Assembly (NCBI GenBank): GCA_030590165.1
Contig: JAUUZA010000001.1
Span: 1 to 59,552 of the forward strand
Direction: 5' to 3'
DNA from: Candidatus Altarchaeota archaeon
GTDB taxonomy: Archaea; SpSt-1190
Length of the DNA stretch: 59,552 nt
In this document: positions 23,243 through 28,065 of the stretch, in pieces
Position numbering within the stretch: the first letter of the stretch is position 1
How the letters are laid out: every line of letters starts with the position of its first letter
The notes under the pieces: model-generated
The model's database searches: none
The model's input: the letters and a program-made list of their open reading frames with translations, nothing else
Told to the model about the DNA's origin: nothing
Translations under genes and position numbers: made by a program

Positions 23243-23316
23243 TGCGCCAGCCGGGATTTGAACCCGGGTTTGCGCCGTGGCAGGGCACTGTCCTAGCCAG
23301 GCTAGACTACTAGCGC
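23243..23316 (-). tRNA. tRNA-Gly (anticodon GCC)
   Basis: The acceptor GCGCTAG/CTGGCGC, D arm GTCT/AGGAC, anticodon stem GTGCC/GGCGC with loop CTGCCAC, and T arm CCGGG-TTCAAAT-CCCGG give a complete cloverleaf. The anticodon is GCC. There is no intron and CCA is not encoded; the discriminator is A, followed by a run of eight T on the reverse strand that can act as a terminator. This tRNA, unlike the other three here, lacks an abutting hairpin repeat. Confidence 0.95.
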
Positions 23317-23534: not shown

Positions 23535-23613
23535 CTAAAATTATTTCCTATTAAATTATCCAATTTTCGTTAAATTTTCAAGTTACACCAATCAGTCTCT
23601 TAATATATTTGAT

Positions 23614-23675
23614 CAAACTTTTCGAGCGAAAGGACAAGCGACTAAAAGGAGCGAGTCCGAAGCGAGAAAAGTTTG
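23614..23675. repeat. tRNA-abutting hairpin repeat, copy A
   Basis: A 10-bp perfect outer stem (CAAACTTTTC / GAAAAGTTTG) encloses purine-rich internal-loop strands with repeated GCGA motifs (GAGCGAAA and GAAGCGA) and an inner GGAC/GTCC stem. It ends at base 23675, overlapping the last two positions of the tRNA-Arg gene, which is transcribed towards it. The same layout occurs beside tRNA-Leu and tRNA-Val. Confidence 0.8.
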
Positions 23676-23748
23676 GGCCTAGCGGGATTTGAACCCGCGA
23701 CTTACAGCTTAGAAGGCTGTCGCCCTATCCAGGCTAGGCTATAGGCCC
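23674..23748 (-). tRNA. tRNA-Arg (anticodon TCT)
   Basis: The acceptor GGGCCTA/TAGGCCC, D arm GCCT/AGGGC, anticodon stem ACAGC/GCTGT with loop CTTCTAA, and T arm GCGGG-TTCAAAT-CCCGC form a full cloverleaf. The anticodon is TCT, reading AGA and AGG. CCA is not encoded. The 3' end runs directly into hairpin repeat copy A. Confidence 0.95.
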
Positions 23749-23797
23749 TTATCTAAAATAGACAAACTACTTTTATAATAACTGTCCTAAGAATTTT

Positions 23798-25855
23798 GTG
23801 TCGACAACCACCATTCATCATGTTCCAATTCTCTTACAAACTTTGGTTGTCGGGTTGCTAACAGTTCTTGTCGGTTGGAAAATTGCTGCCTTAATTTCAA
23901 ATCCTGTTATTTATCTTGACCCTGCACTTGAAACTGCTGCAAATGAACTTGCAATTGTGTGTGAAGGAAAATTAACTTCAACGACATTGACTCCGCCACC
24001 ACCTGGAGCGAATTATATTATAACAACTTGTTTAGACAAAAGTGCAGCGACCTTGGGATCTACGGCATTCACTCTTTATCAAATGAAAGACCTCATAAAA
24101 AGTGGAAAAGATTTTATTTCTTTTTTCAAATCTCCAAAAAATAATTTAGGAACTCTGTGGAAAAAGTTAGGAAAAGGACTCAACAATCTTGAAGAGGTTG
24201 GTAATTTAAGAAAACCAACTAGTGACCTCTTGGATACTATTGGAGATGTAGGAAACTCTATTGATGATGTCCAAGACGCATTAAAAAGTTTAGAAAATCT
24301 CCCAATTGATAATGTTGACGAAGTAAAAAAGTTACTCACACAAACTGATGACATAAAAGCAAATTTAAAAATTCTTGAAAATTATAAAACCGCAGGGGCA
24401 CCACCTCTAGATCCTAACAGTGAAGAATATGAAAAAATTATAAAAGCAATTAATGACCTTAAATCCCAAACTGCTAGTTTAGAAAATGGTCTCACAAGCT
24501 TTGCTGGTGGTCTAAATAAATTTCTTAAAACAGCAAATAATGCAGGAACTCTTGCCGCTGTTCTTCCAAAAAAATCAAAGGGCCTTACTATTTTCTCTTC
24601 CAAAACTAATAAAGTAATAAGTTCTGCTAAAACAACCTTACTCGATTTAAGTGATTGGCAAGCATCTAAAAATGTTTTCAAAACAATTAATCATGTAATA
24701 ACCTCTATTTCAAGTGGTATTAAGAAGAATAGAAAATCCATTCTTTATGCCAAAAACGCAATGAAATTTGCTCAAGATGTCTCATCTGAAAAAAATAGGC
24801 AAATTATTGATTCATATTTAACAACAAATAGTGAAGTATTCGAAATCTTAGCGGGTTCATTTATTGGGATACCATATTCACCCCTCGTCATAAATATAAT
24901 TAATATGACTGAAGATGATCCAAGGAATGACCGACTAATTGAATTTTCACAATCTGCCTTATATGTGACAGGGGATATGTCTAGTTATACTCGACAATTT
25001 AGAAAAGACAGTTCAACTTTCTTAGCCAGTAGGGGTTATTATCTTACTTCTTCCTTCATAAACGATTTGAATGATTACGAAATTTTAACCTATGACAGTC
25101 AAACGAATATTAATCCTTCAATCTTTTTCAGGCTTGCTTCGGAATTCGCAATCAAGTCAAAACCAATTTGTGAAGAAAGTGAAAATTGCGACACTTACTT
25201 TTCTGACCTTTTTGAATATTCAGTTAATATGAATTTAGATACTACTACTCTCGATGAATTTGAAACAATTTCTAAGTCAAATAATCCTTCAATCATCAAT
25301 CATGAATATCTAAAATTTGCTGATGTATTAAATTTCTTCAAAGAAAAAGATATTGAAGCTGGTCCTGTTTTTGATGACGCCGTTGAAGTTCAAAAAGAGG
25401 TTGGAAGTTGGATGGGTGAAAATTGCGAAACTTCTATTTTAAATCTTGATGAAATTGGTCCTGTTGAAGTAACTTCTTGTGGATTAGTAATTGATTGTTC
25501 ACCTATTGAATTTTGTTATGTTGGTCTCCCAGTAGTGAATGCCGATCCTTGGATTCCTTATATTCCTGTAACTTACTTAGACGGAGATGAGGTTGAAGGA
25601 CTTGGAAATTTAATAGGGATGAACTATGACTCAACAGAAAGGGTAATAACCCCAAAATGGTGGGGAGGGGCCTGTCTAACCCCAAGACAACTTGAACACA
25701 TTTATATTTGTGTATCTTTACCTAGTTTCAGTCGGTGTAAGGTTGTTGACTGTGGGAAACAATTGGATATTGAACCAACAAGATTTACCCCAACAGTAAC
25801 TGCTGAAGATATTGGAGAAAAAATGGAAATAAGGGGGAACTTCGCAACATGGTAA
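23798..25855 (+). CDS. 685-aa membrane-anchored coiled-coil protein with Cys-rich C-terminal domain
   Basis: I do not recognise this protein. It has one N-terminal span (LLQTLVVGLLTVLVGWKIAAL), then about 250 residues of helical, probably coiled-coil sequence (SIDDVQDALKSLENLPID; LNDLKSQ-like heptads), a globular region, and a C-terminal domain of about 170 residues with paired cysteines (CETSIL, TSCGLVIDCSP, EFCYVGLP, GGACLTP, YICVSL, RCKVVDCG). The cysteines suggest an extracellular disulfide-bonded tip on a stalk. It starts at GTG 23798, 23 bases after TTTATAAT. Its last 7 bases overlap pth2, so a housekeeping gene depends on its transcript. Confidence 0.7.
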   Translation: MSTTTIHHVPILLQTLVVGLLTVLVGWKIAALISNPVIYLDPALETAANELAIVCEGKLTSTTLTPPPPGANYIITTCLDKSAATLGSTAFTLYQMKDLIKSGKDFISFFKSPKNNLGTLWKKLGKGLNNLEEVGNLRKPTSDLLDTIGDVGNSIDDVQDALKSLENLPIDNVDEVKKLLTQTDDIKANLKILENYKTAGAPPLDPNSEEYEKIIKAINDLKSQTASLENGLTSFAGGLNKFLKTANNAGTLAAVLPKKSKGLTIFSSKTNKVISSAKTTLLDLSDWQASKNVFKTINHVITSISSGIKKNRKSILYAKNAMKFAQDVSSEKNRQIIDSYLTTNSEVFEILAGSFIGIPYSPLVINIINMTEDDPRNDRLIEFSQSALYVTGDMSSYTRQFRKDSSTFLASRGYYLTSSFINDLNDYEILTYDSQTNINPSIFFRLASEFAIKSKPICEESENCDTYFSDLFEYSVNMNLDTTTLDEFETISKSNNPSIINHEYLKFADVLNFFKEKDIEAGPVFDDAVEVQKEVGSWMGENCETSILNLDEIGPVEVTSCGLVIDCSPIEFCYVGLPVVNADPWIPYIPVTYLDGDEVEGLGNLIGMNYDSTERVITPKWWGGACLTPRQLEHIYICVSLPSFSRCKVVDCGKQLDIEPTRFTPTVTAEDIGEKMEIRGNFATW

Positions 25856-26193
25856 AACAAATTATAATAGTTAGGAAAGACATCAAAATGGGAAAAGGAA
25901 AAACTGCAGCACAAGTGGCCCACGCAAGTCTCGGTGCATATAAAAAAGCAAAAAAACTTTCACCTAAACTAATTGCAGAATGGGAAAGTGAAGGTGAGAA
26001 AAAAGTTGTTCTCAAGGGAACGCTTGAAGACCTCATTAATTTTAAGCAATGGGCGGATGCAAAAAAAATCCCAAGTTACATGGTAAGTGACGCAGGAAGA
26101 ACCCAACTCGCACCTGGAACTGTAACTACACTTGGAATAGGTCCAGAAAAAGATGAAGAACTCAAAGAAACTAAAATTCTTAAATTACTTTAA
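25849..26193 (+). CDS. pth2: Peptidyl-tRNA hydrolase 2
   Basis: The 114-aa protein reads VKQIIIVRKDIKMGKGKTAA, AQVAHASLGAYKKA, and MVSDAGRTQLAPGTVTTLGI with GPEKDEEL, the full Pth2 signature. It releases tRNA from stalled peptidyl-tRNA. It overlaps the end of the 685-aa membrane-protein gene by 7 bases and ends next to the convergent gene at 26194. Confidence 0.97.
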   Translation: MVKQIIIVRKDIKMGKGKTAAQVAHASLGAYKKAKKLSPKLIAEWESEGEKKVVLKGTLEDLINFKQWADAKKIPSYMVSDAGRTQLAPGTVTTLGIGPEKDEELKETKILKLL

Positions 26194-26694
26194 TTACCAA
26201 TTATATGAAACTTCTTCAGTTTGAGTACCAGAATCCTTCCATCCTTCCTTTGAAAGTTCAAGAGCCTTCTTTACAGTTGGAAGAGTTCTCTCAAGCTCAT
26301 TTGTCACAAAAGTAATGGTTTCAACCATTATTTGTTCTGGGTTTTCACTTGTTGTGGCTTCAAAAGCACGAAGTGAAAAAGTCTTGTGCAAAACTACACA
26401 AGTCTTCAAAACATCCATCAATTCAGTTTTCATATGTTTTACAAATTTATTATCTTGAGATAAAATGAAATCAGTTGGCGAAATAAAACCTATCATTCCA
26501 TTTGCTAAGTGTATTGGGGCTTTTCTTGAAAACGCAAAAAGACTTAGAACACTATCAACATCATCTTCTTTTGGGAAACCAAAAACAGACATAAATGTTT
26601 TCAATTCAGGTAAATCCTTATGTTTCTTTTTTAATTTAGAATATTCAACTCTAATTTCTTTAATTCCCGTCATACACTTTACATAAATAGTCAT
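26194..26694 (-). CDS. Cytosolic protein of unknown function
   Basis: The 166-aa protein lacks signal peptide and spans. It has a charged N-terminal helix (EYSKLKKKHKDLPELKTFM), a central alpha/beta region (HLANGMIGFISPTDFILS) and a long C-terminal helix (ELERTLPTVKKALELSKEGW). No family is recognised. The 53-bp gap to the divergent gene at 26748 has TTTAAATA at 26721-26728, possibly shared, though the 30-base distance to this start is long. Confidence 0.55.
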   Translation of the reverse strand: MTIYVKCMTGIKEIRVEYSKLKKKHKDLPELKTFMSVFGFPKEDDVDSVLSLFAFSRKAPIHLANGMIGFISPTDFILSQDNKFVKHMKTELMDVLKTCVVLHKTFSLRAFEATTSENPEQIMVETITFVTNELERTLPTVKKALELSKEGWKDSGTQTEEVSYNW

Positions 26695-26747
26695 TTATAA
26701 GGCTTAAAGACGGTTAATCTTTTAAATAACTACTTTAAAATAAAAAC

Positions 26748-26957
26748 ATGAAATACAATCTAAAATTAAGGTATAAACCAATTCTTGATGAAACTCTCAG
26801 CTCTTTAGATGATGGGAGTATAAAATTTGAAACAACGAAAAATTTTGTAGAGGGTTTGTATAACGAAACAAAATTATCAAAAAATGAGATAGGTACTGCA
26901 ATAAAATGTGCAATATTAAACAGCCTTTGTGTTTATGTAAATCAAAATGAAAAATAA
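26748..26957 (+). CDS. 69-aa protein of unknown function
   Basis: The short product (LRYKPILDETLSSLDDGSIK; NEIGTAIKCAILNSLCVYV) appears to be a small helical protein. No motif is recognised. A TTTAAATA box is centred about 24 bases before the ATG, which supports expression as a leaderless mRNA. Confidence 0.45.
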   Translation: MKYNLKLRYKPILDETLSSLDDGSIKFETTKNFVEGLYNETKLSKNEIGTAIKCAILNSLCVYVNQNEK

Positions 26958-26981
26958 ATTTTAAATAAAATATATTTTACT

Positions 26982-27031
26982 CAATTTTTTTTGAGTGTAT
27001 CCCGCGAAGCGAGAGCAGTGAAAAAAAGTTG
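26982..27031. repeat. Hairpin repeat, degenerate copy 0
   Basis: An A/T-rich outer stem (CAATTTTTTTT / AAAAAAAGTTG) encloses GAGTGTA and GCAGTGA strands that correspond to the GAGCGGA/GTAGTGA internal loop of copies 1 and 2, with a short inner CGC-GAA-GCG hairpin. It lies in line with the two full copies before tRNA-Leu and looks like an older diverged unit. Confidence 0.55.
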
Positions 27032-27068
27032 CCAAGTATAAGCGGGATTTGTGGGAGGAAATTTTATT

Positions 27069-27127
27069 CAAACTTTTCGAGCGGACCCCTGCGAGGAAAG
27101 CGAGCAGGGGGTAGTGAGAAAAGCTTG
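27069..27127. repeat. Hairpin repeat, copy 1
   Basis: The outer stem is CAAACTTTTC / GAAAAGCTTG (one G-T wobble). The conserved internal loop is GAGCGGA / GTAGTGA, and the inner stem CCCCTGC / GCAGGGG carries a GAGGAAAGCGA loop. It is nearly identical to copy 2, 96 bp downstream. The linker between them (27128-27164) starts with a perfect TCCCGC-ATAG-GCGGGA hairpin and is itself a diverged copy of 27032-27068, so the whole 96-bp unit has been duplicated in tandem. Confidence 0.8.
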
Positions 27128-27164
27128 TCCCGCATAGGCGGGACTTGCAGAAGGAAATTTTACT

Positions 27165-27223
27165 CAAGCTTTTCGAGCGGACCCCTGCGAGGAAAGCGAG
27201 CAGGGGGTAGTGAGAAAAGCTTG
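27165..27223. repeat. Hairpin repeat, copy 2, abutting tRNA-Leu
   Basis: A perfect 10-bp outer stem (CAAGCTTTTC / GAAAAGCTTG), the GAGCGGA/GTAGTGA internal loop and a perfect inner stem CCCCTGC / GCAGGGG make a long cruciform. It ends at 27223, overlapping the last two positions of the tRNA-Leu gene, exactly as copy A overlaps tRNA-Arg. The inner stem sequence equals the acceptor stem of the adjacent tRNA-Leu. Confidence 0.85.
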
Positions 27224-27306
27224 CAGGGGATGAGATTTGAACTCACGAACCCACTAGGGACAGGAATCTGAATCCTGCGCGTTTGGCCAAGCTCCGCCAC
27301 CCCTGC
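27222..27306 (-). tRNA. tRNA-Leu (anticodon CAG)
   Basis: This type II tRNA has acceptor GCAGGGG/CCCCTGC, anticodon stem CAGGA/TCCTG with loop TTCAGAT, a long variable arm (TCCCTAGTGGGTTC) and T arm GTGAG-TTCAAAT-CTCAT. The anticodon is CAG. No intron; CCA is not encoded. Its 3' end runs into hairpin repeat copy 2. Confidence 0.95.
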
Positions 27307-27356
27307 AGCAATTATCCTTTCAAAGAGTAATTTAAATATGTAGTTTCATACTTATT

Positions 27357-27911
27357 GTGGACCCACGAATTAAAGTTGCACTCAAAGCCATAGAAATTAT
27401 GGAGAAATTACAACATTCAAAACTCCTTCGTTCTGATTTTCACGTCCTTACATCAAAAGTTAAACAACTTCAATGGATTGAAGATTTAAATTACTTGAAA
27501 AAAGAATGTGATTTTTTAGAAAAATTTTCATATGATTCTCTAAAATTTGATTCAAAAATAAATGCTGAAATGAAATGGTGCACAAACACTTTGAAAAAAC
27601 TCAAGTCTCGATTTGACAAGGGAAAAAGTGAATCAATTCTCGTAGGTCTTGATGTTGGTGTTGGTGAAATAATAACCACTTCAAAAGTTTCGGATAAACT
27701 TACTGTTTGTCGAATATCTTCAAAAATAGGGGATTTTACAGTTATCACAAATTTGAGTGTGAAAAAAGGAAATCGTTTGCCCTTTGTAATTTTACCGCCA
27801 ACTGTAATTGGCGGTGTAATGAGCGAAGCTATGTTTGTTTGGGGGCCAATTAAATCCCTTGATGAAATTGATTGGAAGAAGGTTGAGGGGACTGTTTCTG
27901 CTTTCTTCTAA
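27357..27911 (+). CDS. Protein with C-terminal EMAP/CsaA-like tRNA-binding domain
   Basis: The 184-aa product has about 85 residues of helical N-terminal sequence and a C-terminal OB fold. The OB fold includes VGLDVGVGEIITTSKVSDKL (matching the VGxIxxaxxhPxADKL start of the family), ITNLSVKKGNRLPFVILPP and GGVMSEAMFVWGPI (matching GvxSeGMll). This is the tRNA-binding fold of Arc1p/EMAP-II and MetRS tails. It may deliver tRNA to a synthetase or act in quality control. It starts at GTG 27357, about 22-25 bases after TTTAAATAT, and lies between tRNA-Leu and tRNA-Val on the opposite strand. Confidence 0.75.
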   Translation: MDPRIKVALKAIEIMEKLQHSKLLRSDFHVLTSKVKQLQWIEDLNYLKKECDFLEKFSYDSLKFDSKINAEMKWCTNTLKKLKSRFDKGKSESILVGLDVGVGEIITTSKVSDKLTVCRISSKIGDFTVITNLSVKKGNRLPFVILPPTVIGGVMSEAMFVWGPIKSLDEIDWKKVEGTVSAFF

Positions 27912-27918
27912 CTTTGAT

Positions 27919-27990
27919 GAAACTTTTCGAGCGGAGCCCGAATCCCGCGTAGAGGAAGAGCGGGATGAGGGCGTAGTGAAGAAAAGTTTC
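27919..27990. repeat. Hairpin repeat, copy D, next to tRNA-Val
   Basis: The outer stem is GAAACTTTTC / GAAAAGTTTC and the internal loop GAGCGGA / GTAGTGA is the same as in copies 1 and 2. The inner part differs: GCCC/GGGC, a GA/GA mismatch pair, then ATCCCGC/GCGGGAT with an 11-base loop. It ends one base before the tRNA-Val gene. The conserved outer stem and loop with replaced inner stems implies selection on structure or a modular origin. Confidence 0.82.
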
Positions 27991-27991
27991 T

Positions 27992-28065
27992 TGGGGCTGC
28001 CCGGATTCGAACCGGGGACCTCCGCCGTGTGAGGGCGGCGTCATAGCCAACTAAACCACAACCCC
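27992..28065 (-). tRNA. tRNA-Val (anticodon CAC)
   Basis: The acceptor GGGGTTG/CAGCCCC, anticodon stem CCGCC/GGCGG with loop CTCACAC and T arm CCCGG-TTCGAAT-CCGGG form a complete tRNA with anticodon CAC. CCA is not encoded. Hairpin repeat copy D lies one base past its 3' end. Confidence 0.95.

Follow-up and report, generated by a model that had tools for sequence, protein, structure and literature searches.

Hairpins at tRNA gene ends in a Candidatus Altarchaeota archaeon and its family as probable miniature insertion elements

The hairpins that follow many tRNA genes in the archaeal genome studied here, and in six other genomes of its family, probably belong to a class of miniature insertion elements found throughout the family, which would enter tRNA genes at either end; this reading is given a probability of roughly 0.58. 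The elements are linked to tRNA genes, and their palindrome varies in a compensatory manner. Moreover, relatives carry duplicated tRNA ends, and hairpin presence differs between two genomes of the same genus. The window, meaning the whole stretch of 59,552 nucleotides that was analysed, is contig C35 of the source genome (G000), a 724-kb MAG of 87.6% completeness with 44 tRNAs; all genomes of the family set are fragmented MAGs, 72-90% complete.

Four tRNA genes are present in the window, all on the minus strand, and three carry a copy directly at their 3' end, as the preliminary description had it: tRNA-Arg(tct) (23674..23748, tRNA call and Rfam), tRNA-Leu(cag) (27221..27307, tRNA call) and tRNA-Val(cac) (27992..28065, tRNA call and Rfam). 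The fourth, tRNA-Gly(gcc) (23243..23316, tRNA call and trailer listing), lacks the element and has a plain T-run as trailer. The hairpin of Arg(tct) occupies 23614..23675 on the minus strand, like the other copies and their tails, and its outer stem, CAAACTTTTC/GAAAAGTTTG, includes C72-A73 of the tRNA (covariance model 23606-23675, 68.2 bits). It is followed at 23608..23613 by a conserved tail, ATCAAA in the tRNA sense, which is also present in relatives. The Leu(cag) hairpin (27165..27223, 72.5 bits) has at 27159..27164 a tail that reads AGTAAA, diverged from AYCAAA, and it is followed by a second tandem copy 96 nt further on (27069..27127, 70.1 bits) and by a third, degenerate one (26974..27031, 32.8 bits, E 3.5e-4), assigned to repeat family D1. 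By direct reading, a 7-bp hairpin of no assigned strand, GTCCCGC-ATAG-GCGGGAC (27127..27144), lies between two of the tandem copies. The Val(cac) element (27919..27990, 63.0 bits, z -5.98) encloses a nested inner hairpin within its outer stem, GAAACTTTTC/GAAAAGTTTC, and its conserved tail, ATCAAA, can be read at 27913..27918.

These are the four full copies originally placed at 23614, 27069, 27165 and 27919, and the covariance model also recovers the degenerate copy, for which 26982 had been given. The claim that the outer stem ends beside the tRNA 3' end holds as regards position but not as regards abutment, because the first one or two stem pairs often use tRNA C72 and A73, so that stem and tRNA overlap. 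Within the window the element is confined to the copies just listed, as previously stated, and GAGCGGA is found in it nowhere else. No duplicated tRNA end is visible at the window copies. The Rfam search of the window returned tRNA only, leaving the hairpin with no match to an Rfam family, and at the relatives' loci it returned nothing beyond tRNA and one archaeal RNase P; the earlier option of an independent small RNA gained no support. Between these tRNA genes, a reading frame at 25852-26190 shares 54% identity with Candidatus Nanohalarchaeota loci, and its product looks, as judged by eye, like peptidyl-tRNA hydrolase 2.

The four full window hairpins fold better than shuffled sequence (z -2.8 to -6.0). 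When ten copies from the source genome were aligned by sequence with MAFFT, 89% of cells were paired against 74% after shuffling, with two-sided change in 7 of the 14 stem pairs, these counts resting on a structure chosen from the same copies that were scored. Pairing fell sharply if the structure was slid by a single column. The outer stems of the source genome vary from copy to copy (AGCTTTTC, AACTTTTC, ACCTTTTTC, ACCGATTTC, ACCATTCC and others) while pairing is kept. The compensatory changes sought in the stems are present.

A covariance model search of the source genome retrieved 15 copies (E<1e-3), all at or beside tRNA genes, each fetched locus containing a tRNA. Eleven begin no more than 4 nt from the 3' end of a tRNA, and the remainder comprise three tandem copies and one on the opposite strand near tRNA-Val(gac). 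In a survey of the 3' trailers of all 44 tRNAs, hairpins starting at nt 72-75 were seen at Arg(tct), Leu(cag), Val(cac), Arg(tcg), Gly(ccc), Phe, Leu(gag), Glu(ttc), Pro(tgg) and Pro(cgg), that of Arg(cct) starting a few nt further downstream. One copy matching the strict motif (C9:6679) has no tRNA nearby. The two observations named beforehand as refuting the preliminary description, a majority of copies away from tRNAs or stems without compensatory change, were looked for and did not refute it.

Next to tRNA 3' ends the hairpins keep to one strand and one register, and this, together with the compensatory stem changes, is what would be expected of a structured RNA trailer kept under selection in the pre-tRNA, where it would position RNase Z cleavage, shield the 3' end or assist termination. 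The 5' arm of the hairpin also carries a run of T4-5, as the ordinary trailers of this genome do. A function of this kind is nevertheless considered unlikely, in part owing to where the elements occur in the relatives. The covariance model finds matches in all seven family genomes, the relatives' elements being mostly shorter than those of the source genome (for example CCCA|AACTTTTTAGAAAAAAGTTTGATCAAAAA) and commonly of the form NNARCTTTT-loop-AAAAGYTNN followed by AYCAAAA. A strict version of this pattern was matched on both strands in 8 of the 10 genomes examined from the phylum, and a reversed control gave no match. In the relatives' strict-pattern matches, the two pyrimidines of AAAAGYTNNAYCAAAA (GYTNNAYC) are identical in 77 of 80 cases; the existence of two subfamilies, and not a constraint on structure, may account for this.

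Among the 74 unique elements of the family, a count from which G009, a genome of another family of the class with matches away from tRNAs, was excluded, 55 are tRNA-linked. Of these, 29 directly adjoin the 3' end of a tRNA, 3 adjoin a 5' end and are antisense to it, 3 sit inside tRNA introns, 14 are next to a fragment of a tRNA and 6 are found within 250 nt. The other 19 have no tRNA link. In G001, perfect hairpins are approximately ten times as dense up to 400 nt from a tRNA (2.27 per kb) as elsewhere (0.21 per kb). Some copies follow tRNA 5' fragments truncated at the D-loop; these, like the intronic, antisense and unlinked copies, are poorly accommodated by a selected trailer. The intronic copies lie at the anticodon loop (L124 12017, L148 1501, L180 1526) and may point to one way in which introns arise.

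The element is also far from universal among tRNAs, being called by the detector at 11 of 40, 11 of 28, 12 of 33 and 9 of 30 tRNAs in four genomes, so that between roughly one quarter and two fifths of them carry it, which again speaks against a trailer function. Its presence per tRNA agrees slightly more often across the four genomes than by chance (97 versus 85.2 pairs, p=0.03), as function or inheritance would give, and this concordance is a point in favour of the trailer. In G005 and G006, which belong to one genus, a hairpin is present in one and absent from the other at Leu(caa), Lys(ttt), Ala(cgc) and other tRNAs, and where both genomes carry a hairpin its sequence differs. No clean empty site could be aligned between these two genomes, because their flanks are too diverged.

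At copies that do not abut a tRNA, fragments of the adjacent tRNA lie next to the hairpin. In a systematic scan for repeated tRNA ends, the repeated segments correspond to tRNA nt ~55-73 when downstream, or to nt 1-15/20 when upstream, with a short insert between repeat and tRNA. The scan yielded 31 duplication events in 159 tRNAs, of which 22 involve the 3' side and 9 the 5' side, with variable duplication lengths of 15-24 nt (16-24 nt for the 3' events) and inserts of 33-160 nt, apart from one of 236. When full flanks were required, 24 events remained in 100 tRNAs of relatives (19 at the 3' side, 5 at the 5' side), against 1 in 42 tRNAs of the source genome, 1 in 25 tRNAs from other families and none in three sets of 100 random segments. 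The only clear duplicated end of the source genome is at tRNA-Thr(cgt) (L054, on contig C7), arranged as GCCCCAATGGCTCAGTG-insert-GCCCCAATGGCTCAGTG, where nt 1-17 are duplicated on the 5' side around a 59-nt insert with two hairpins. Most 3' inserts open with a hairpin at, or a few nt from, the tRNA end, and some inserts are devoid of the consensus palindrome. At several loci, among them those of Val(gac) and Pro(tgg) in genome G001, two or three units follow one another.

A staggered cut that is subsequently filled would leave exact copies of the tRNA end around a short insert, and the duplicated ends look like target-site duplications from a miniature insertion element with a specificity for the ends of tRNA genes. 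A trailer under selection leaves them unexplained. They could also be produced by template switching and slippage during replication at tRNA genes, which would create or refresh inverted repeats and duplicate the ends without any mobile element. Such an origin would agree with the stem often taking in tRNA C72-A73, with some inserts that rebuild the T-stem complement beside the copied tRNA end, with exact tandem units such as those of tRNA-Ser in L127, and with the finding of no known recombinase family-wide among the four enzyme families searched for. It is judged rather improbable, even so, as the consensus and its AYCAAAA tail recur at unrelated tRNAs and across genera, and on both sides a tRNA terminus marks where the duplicated segment stops.

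The motif is not restricted to this family. The palindrome and AYCAAA tail occur in G014, a distant archaeon of 55% GC, both at some tRNAs and elsewhere (L246-L265), in IMG/VR viral contigs with no adjoining tRNA, and in Komagataeibacter plasmids (L215-L225, L266 and L267 being viral contigs and Acetobacteraceae plasmids). Taken together, most of these occurrences are away from tRNAs. By BLAST, a bacterial-style version of the motif matched plasmids of Komagataeibacter and Novacetimonas, and phages gave no match. These copies may be related to those of the family or convergent. Palindromes found away from tRNAs would be expected if the motif were a bidirectional terminator reused near tRNAs, the T-runs on both strands stopping transcription from either side. 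This is thought very improbable, as the duplicated ends and the D-loop and intron positions are left unexplained by it, and convergent neighbours are not preferred. Hairpins showed no preference for tRNAs that face a convergent gene (17/28 versus 33/43, p=0.57), and the missing link with convergent neighbours likewise counts against a selected trailer. The same motif away from tRNAs in other lineages is also a point against insertion at tRNA ends, as are the 19 unlinked elements out of 74, the source-genome copy at C9:6679, the variable duplication lengths, the inserts devoid of the consensus palindrome, the window copies without a duplicated tRNA end, the lack of a clean empty site, the slight concordance of presence across genomes and the absence of a candidate enzyme from the four-family searches.

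The enzyme searches covered four Pfam families in MAGs that are incomplete. Cas1 (PF01867, with positive controls), the Y1 transposase (PF01797) and the reverse transcriptase RVT_1 (PF00078), which a retrotransposed, SINE-like element would call for, were each detected in none of the seven genomes, and the tyrosine integrase (PF00589) in the source genome only, being absent from the relatives that show duplications. The responsible enzyme would accordingly be unrecognised or encoded outside these bins, or else the process would be one of repair. A tyrosine-recombinase reading frame of 300 aa lies on a separate contig of the source genome (L194, G000:C34, 3,080 bases), which is possibly a mobile element.

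In the model proposed for insertion at tRNA gene ends, the tRNA gene would be cut with a stagger of ~16-20 bp, so that one break falls at its terminus (following nt 73 or preceding nt 1) and its counterpart in the region of the T-loop or D-loop. Between the two breaks a small insert of 33-160 nt would be placed, leaving the tRNA intact and a second copy of its end flanking the insert, which would usually open with the palindrome NNARCTTTT-loop-AAAAGYTNN-AYCAAAA or with another hairpin. As the 5' arm would place a run of T4-5 immediately behind the tRNA, much as ordinary trailers do, 3' insertions may be tolerated because tRNA expression can be spared. The window copies would have arisen by the same process, as suggested by the relatives. 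Of the three options first considered, a mobile palindromic element at tRNA 3' ends fits best, owing to the tRNA linkage and the relatives' duplicated termini; its limitation to 3' ends does not stand, given the 5'-end and intron cases. By analogy, the process could tentatively be compared with CRISPR adaptation at the first repeat: an integration system acting at tRNA gene termini would add hairpin inserts successively beside the tRNA, each copying 15-24 nt of its end, and would generate array-like loci of the kind that G001 has at Val(gac) and Pro(tgg).

Mobile DNA lands by preference at the ends of tRNA genes, but the elements known to do so are large and carry their own enzymes. In tiny genomes from which the usual enzymes went undetected, inserts as short as 33-160 nt that are flanked by precise duplications of the tRNA end would point to a novel integrase or to a tRNA-specific mode of replication error, and the duplicated ends and intron copies bear on the origin of disrupted and intron-bearing archaeal tRNA genes. 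Integrative elements of the tyrosine-recombinase type span kilobases, and the att copy that they carry belongs to a single tRNA. As with these, the tRNA 3' end stays whole here and a 3' fragment is repeated on the far side; in contrast to them, many different tRNAs are involved, the inserts are short and an integrase was found in one genome of seven. MITEs and REP/BIME sequences are short, non-coding, palindromic and present in many copies without an enzyme of their own, features shared by the tRNA-end hairpins. The latter differ in being tied to tRNA gene ends, in their 15-24 nt duplications and variable palindrome, and in that no Y1 (RAYT-type) transposase was detected in the seven genomes.

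Literature on palindromes linked to tRNAs, on duplicated targets in DPANN archaea and on the letters of the motif offered no match beyond Methanopyrus kandleri and casposons, neither of which matches the hairpin elements. M. kandleri, also an archaeon with a palindrome downstream of tRNA genes, has CGTTA(N)9TAACG ~10 bp downstream of about half of them, for which the authors suggest a role in 3' maturation (PMC5217627). That palindrome is short, fixed in sequence and offset from the tRNA, with no mention of duplicated tRNA ends in the portions of the source consulted (PMC5217627). Casposons are Cas1-solo transposons that insert at tRNA 3' ends with a 14-15 bp target-site duplication, as does that of A. 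boonei at tRNA-Pro, and their casposase recognises TCAAATC (PMC6614799), which in our reading resembles the tRNA T-loop. Duplication at tRNA 3' ends is common to both cases, with 22 3'-side events of 16-24 nt here. Casposons, however, encode Cas1 and other genes, whereas the present inserts measure 33-160 nt and Cas1 was undetected in the seven genomes; furthermore, the duplication here covers the tRNA end itself, 5' ends are targeted as well, and the boundaries are unlike those of the published casposon site.
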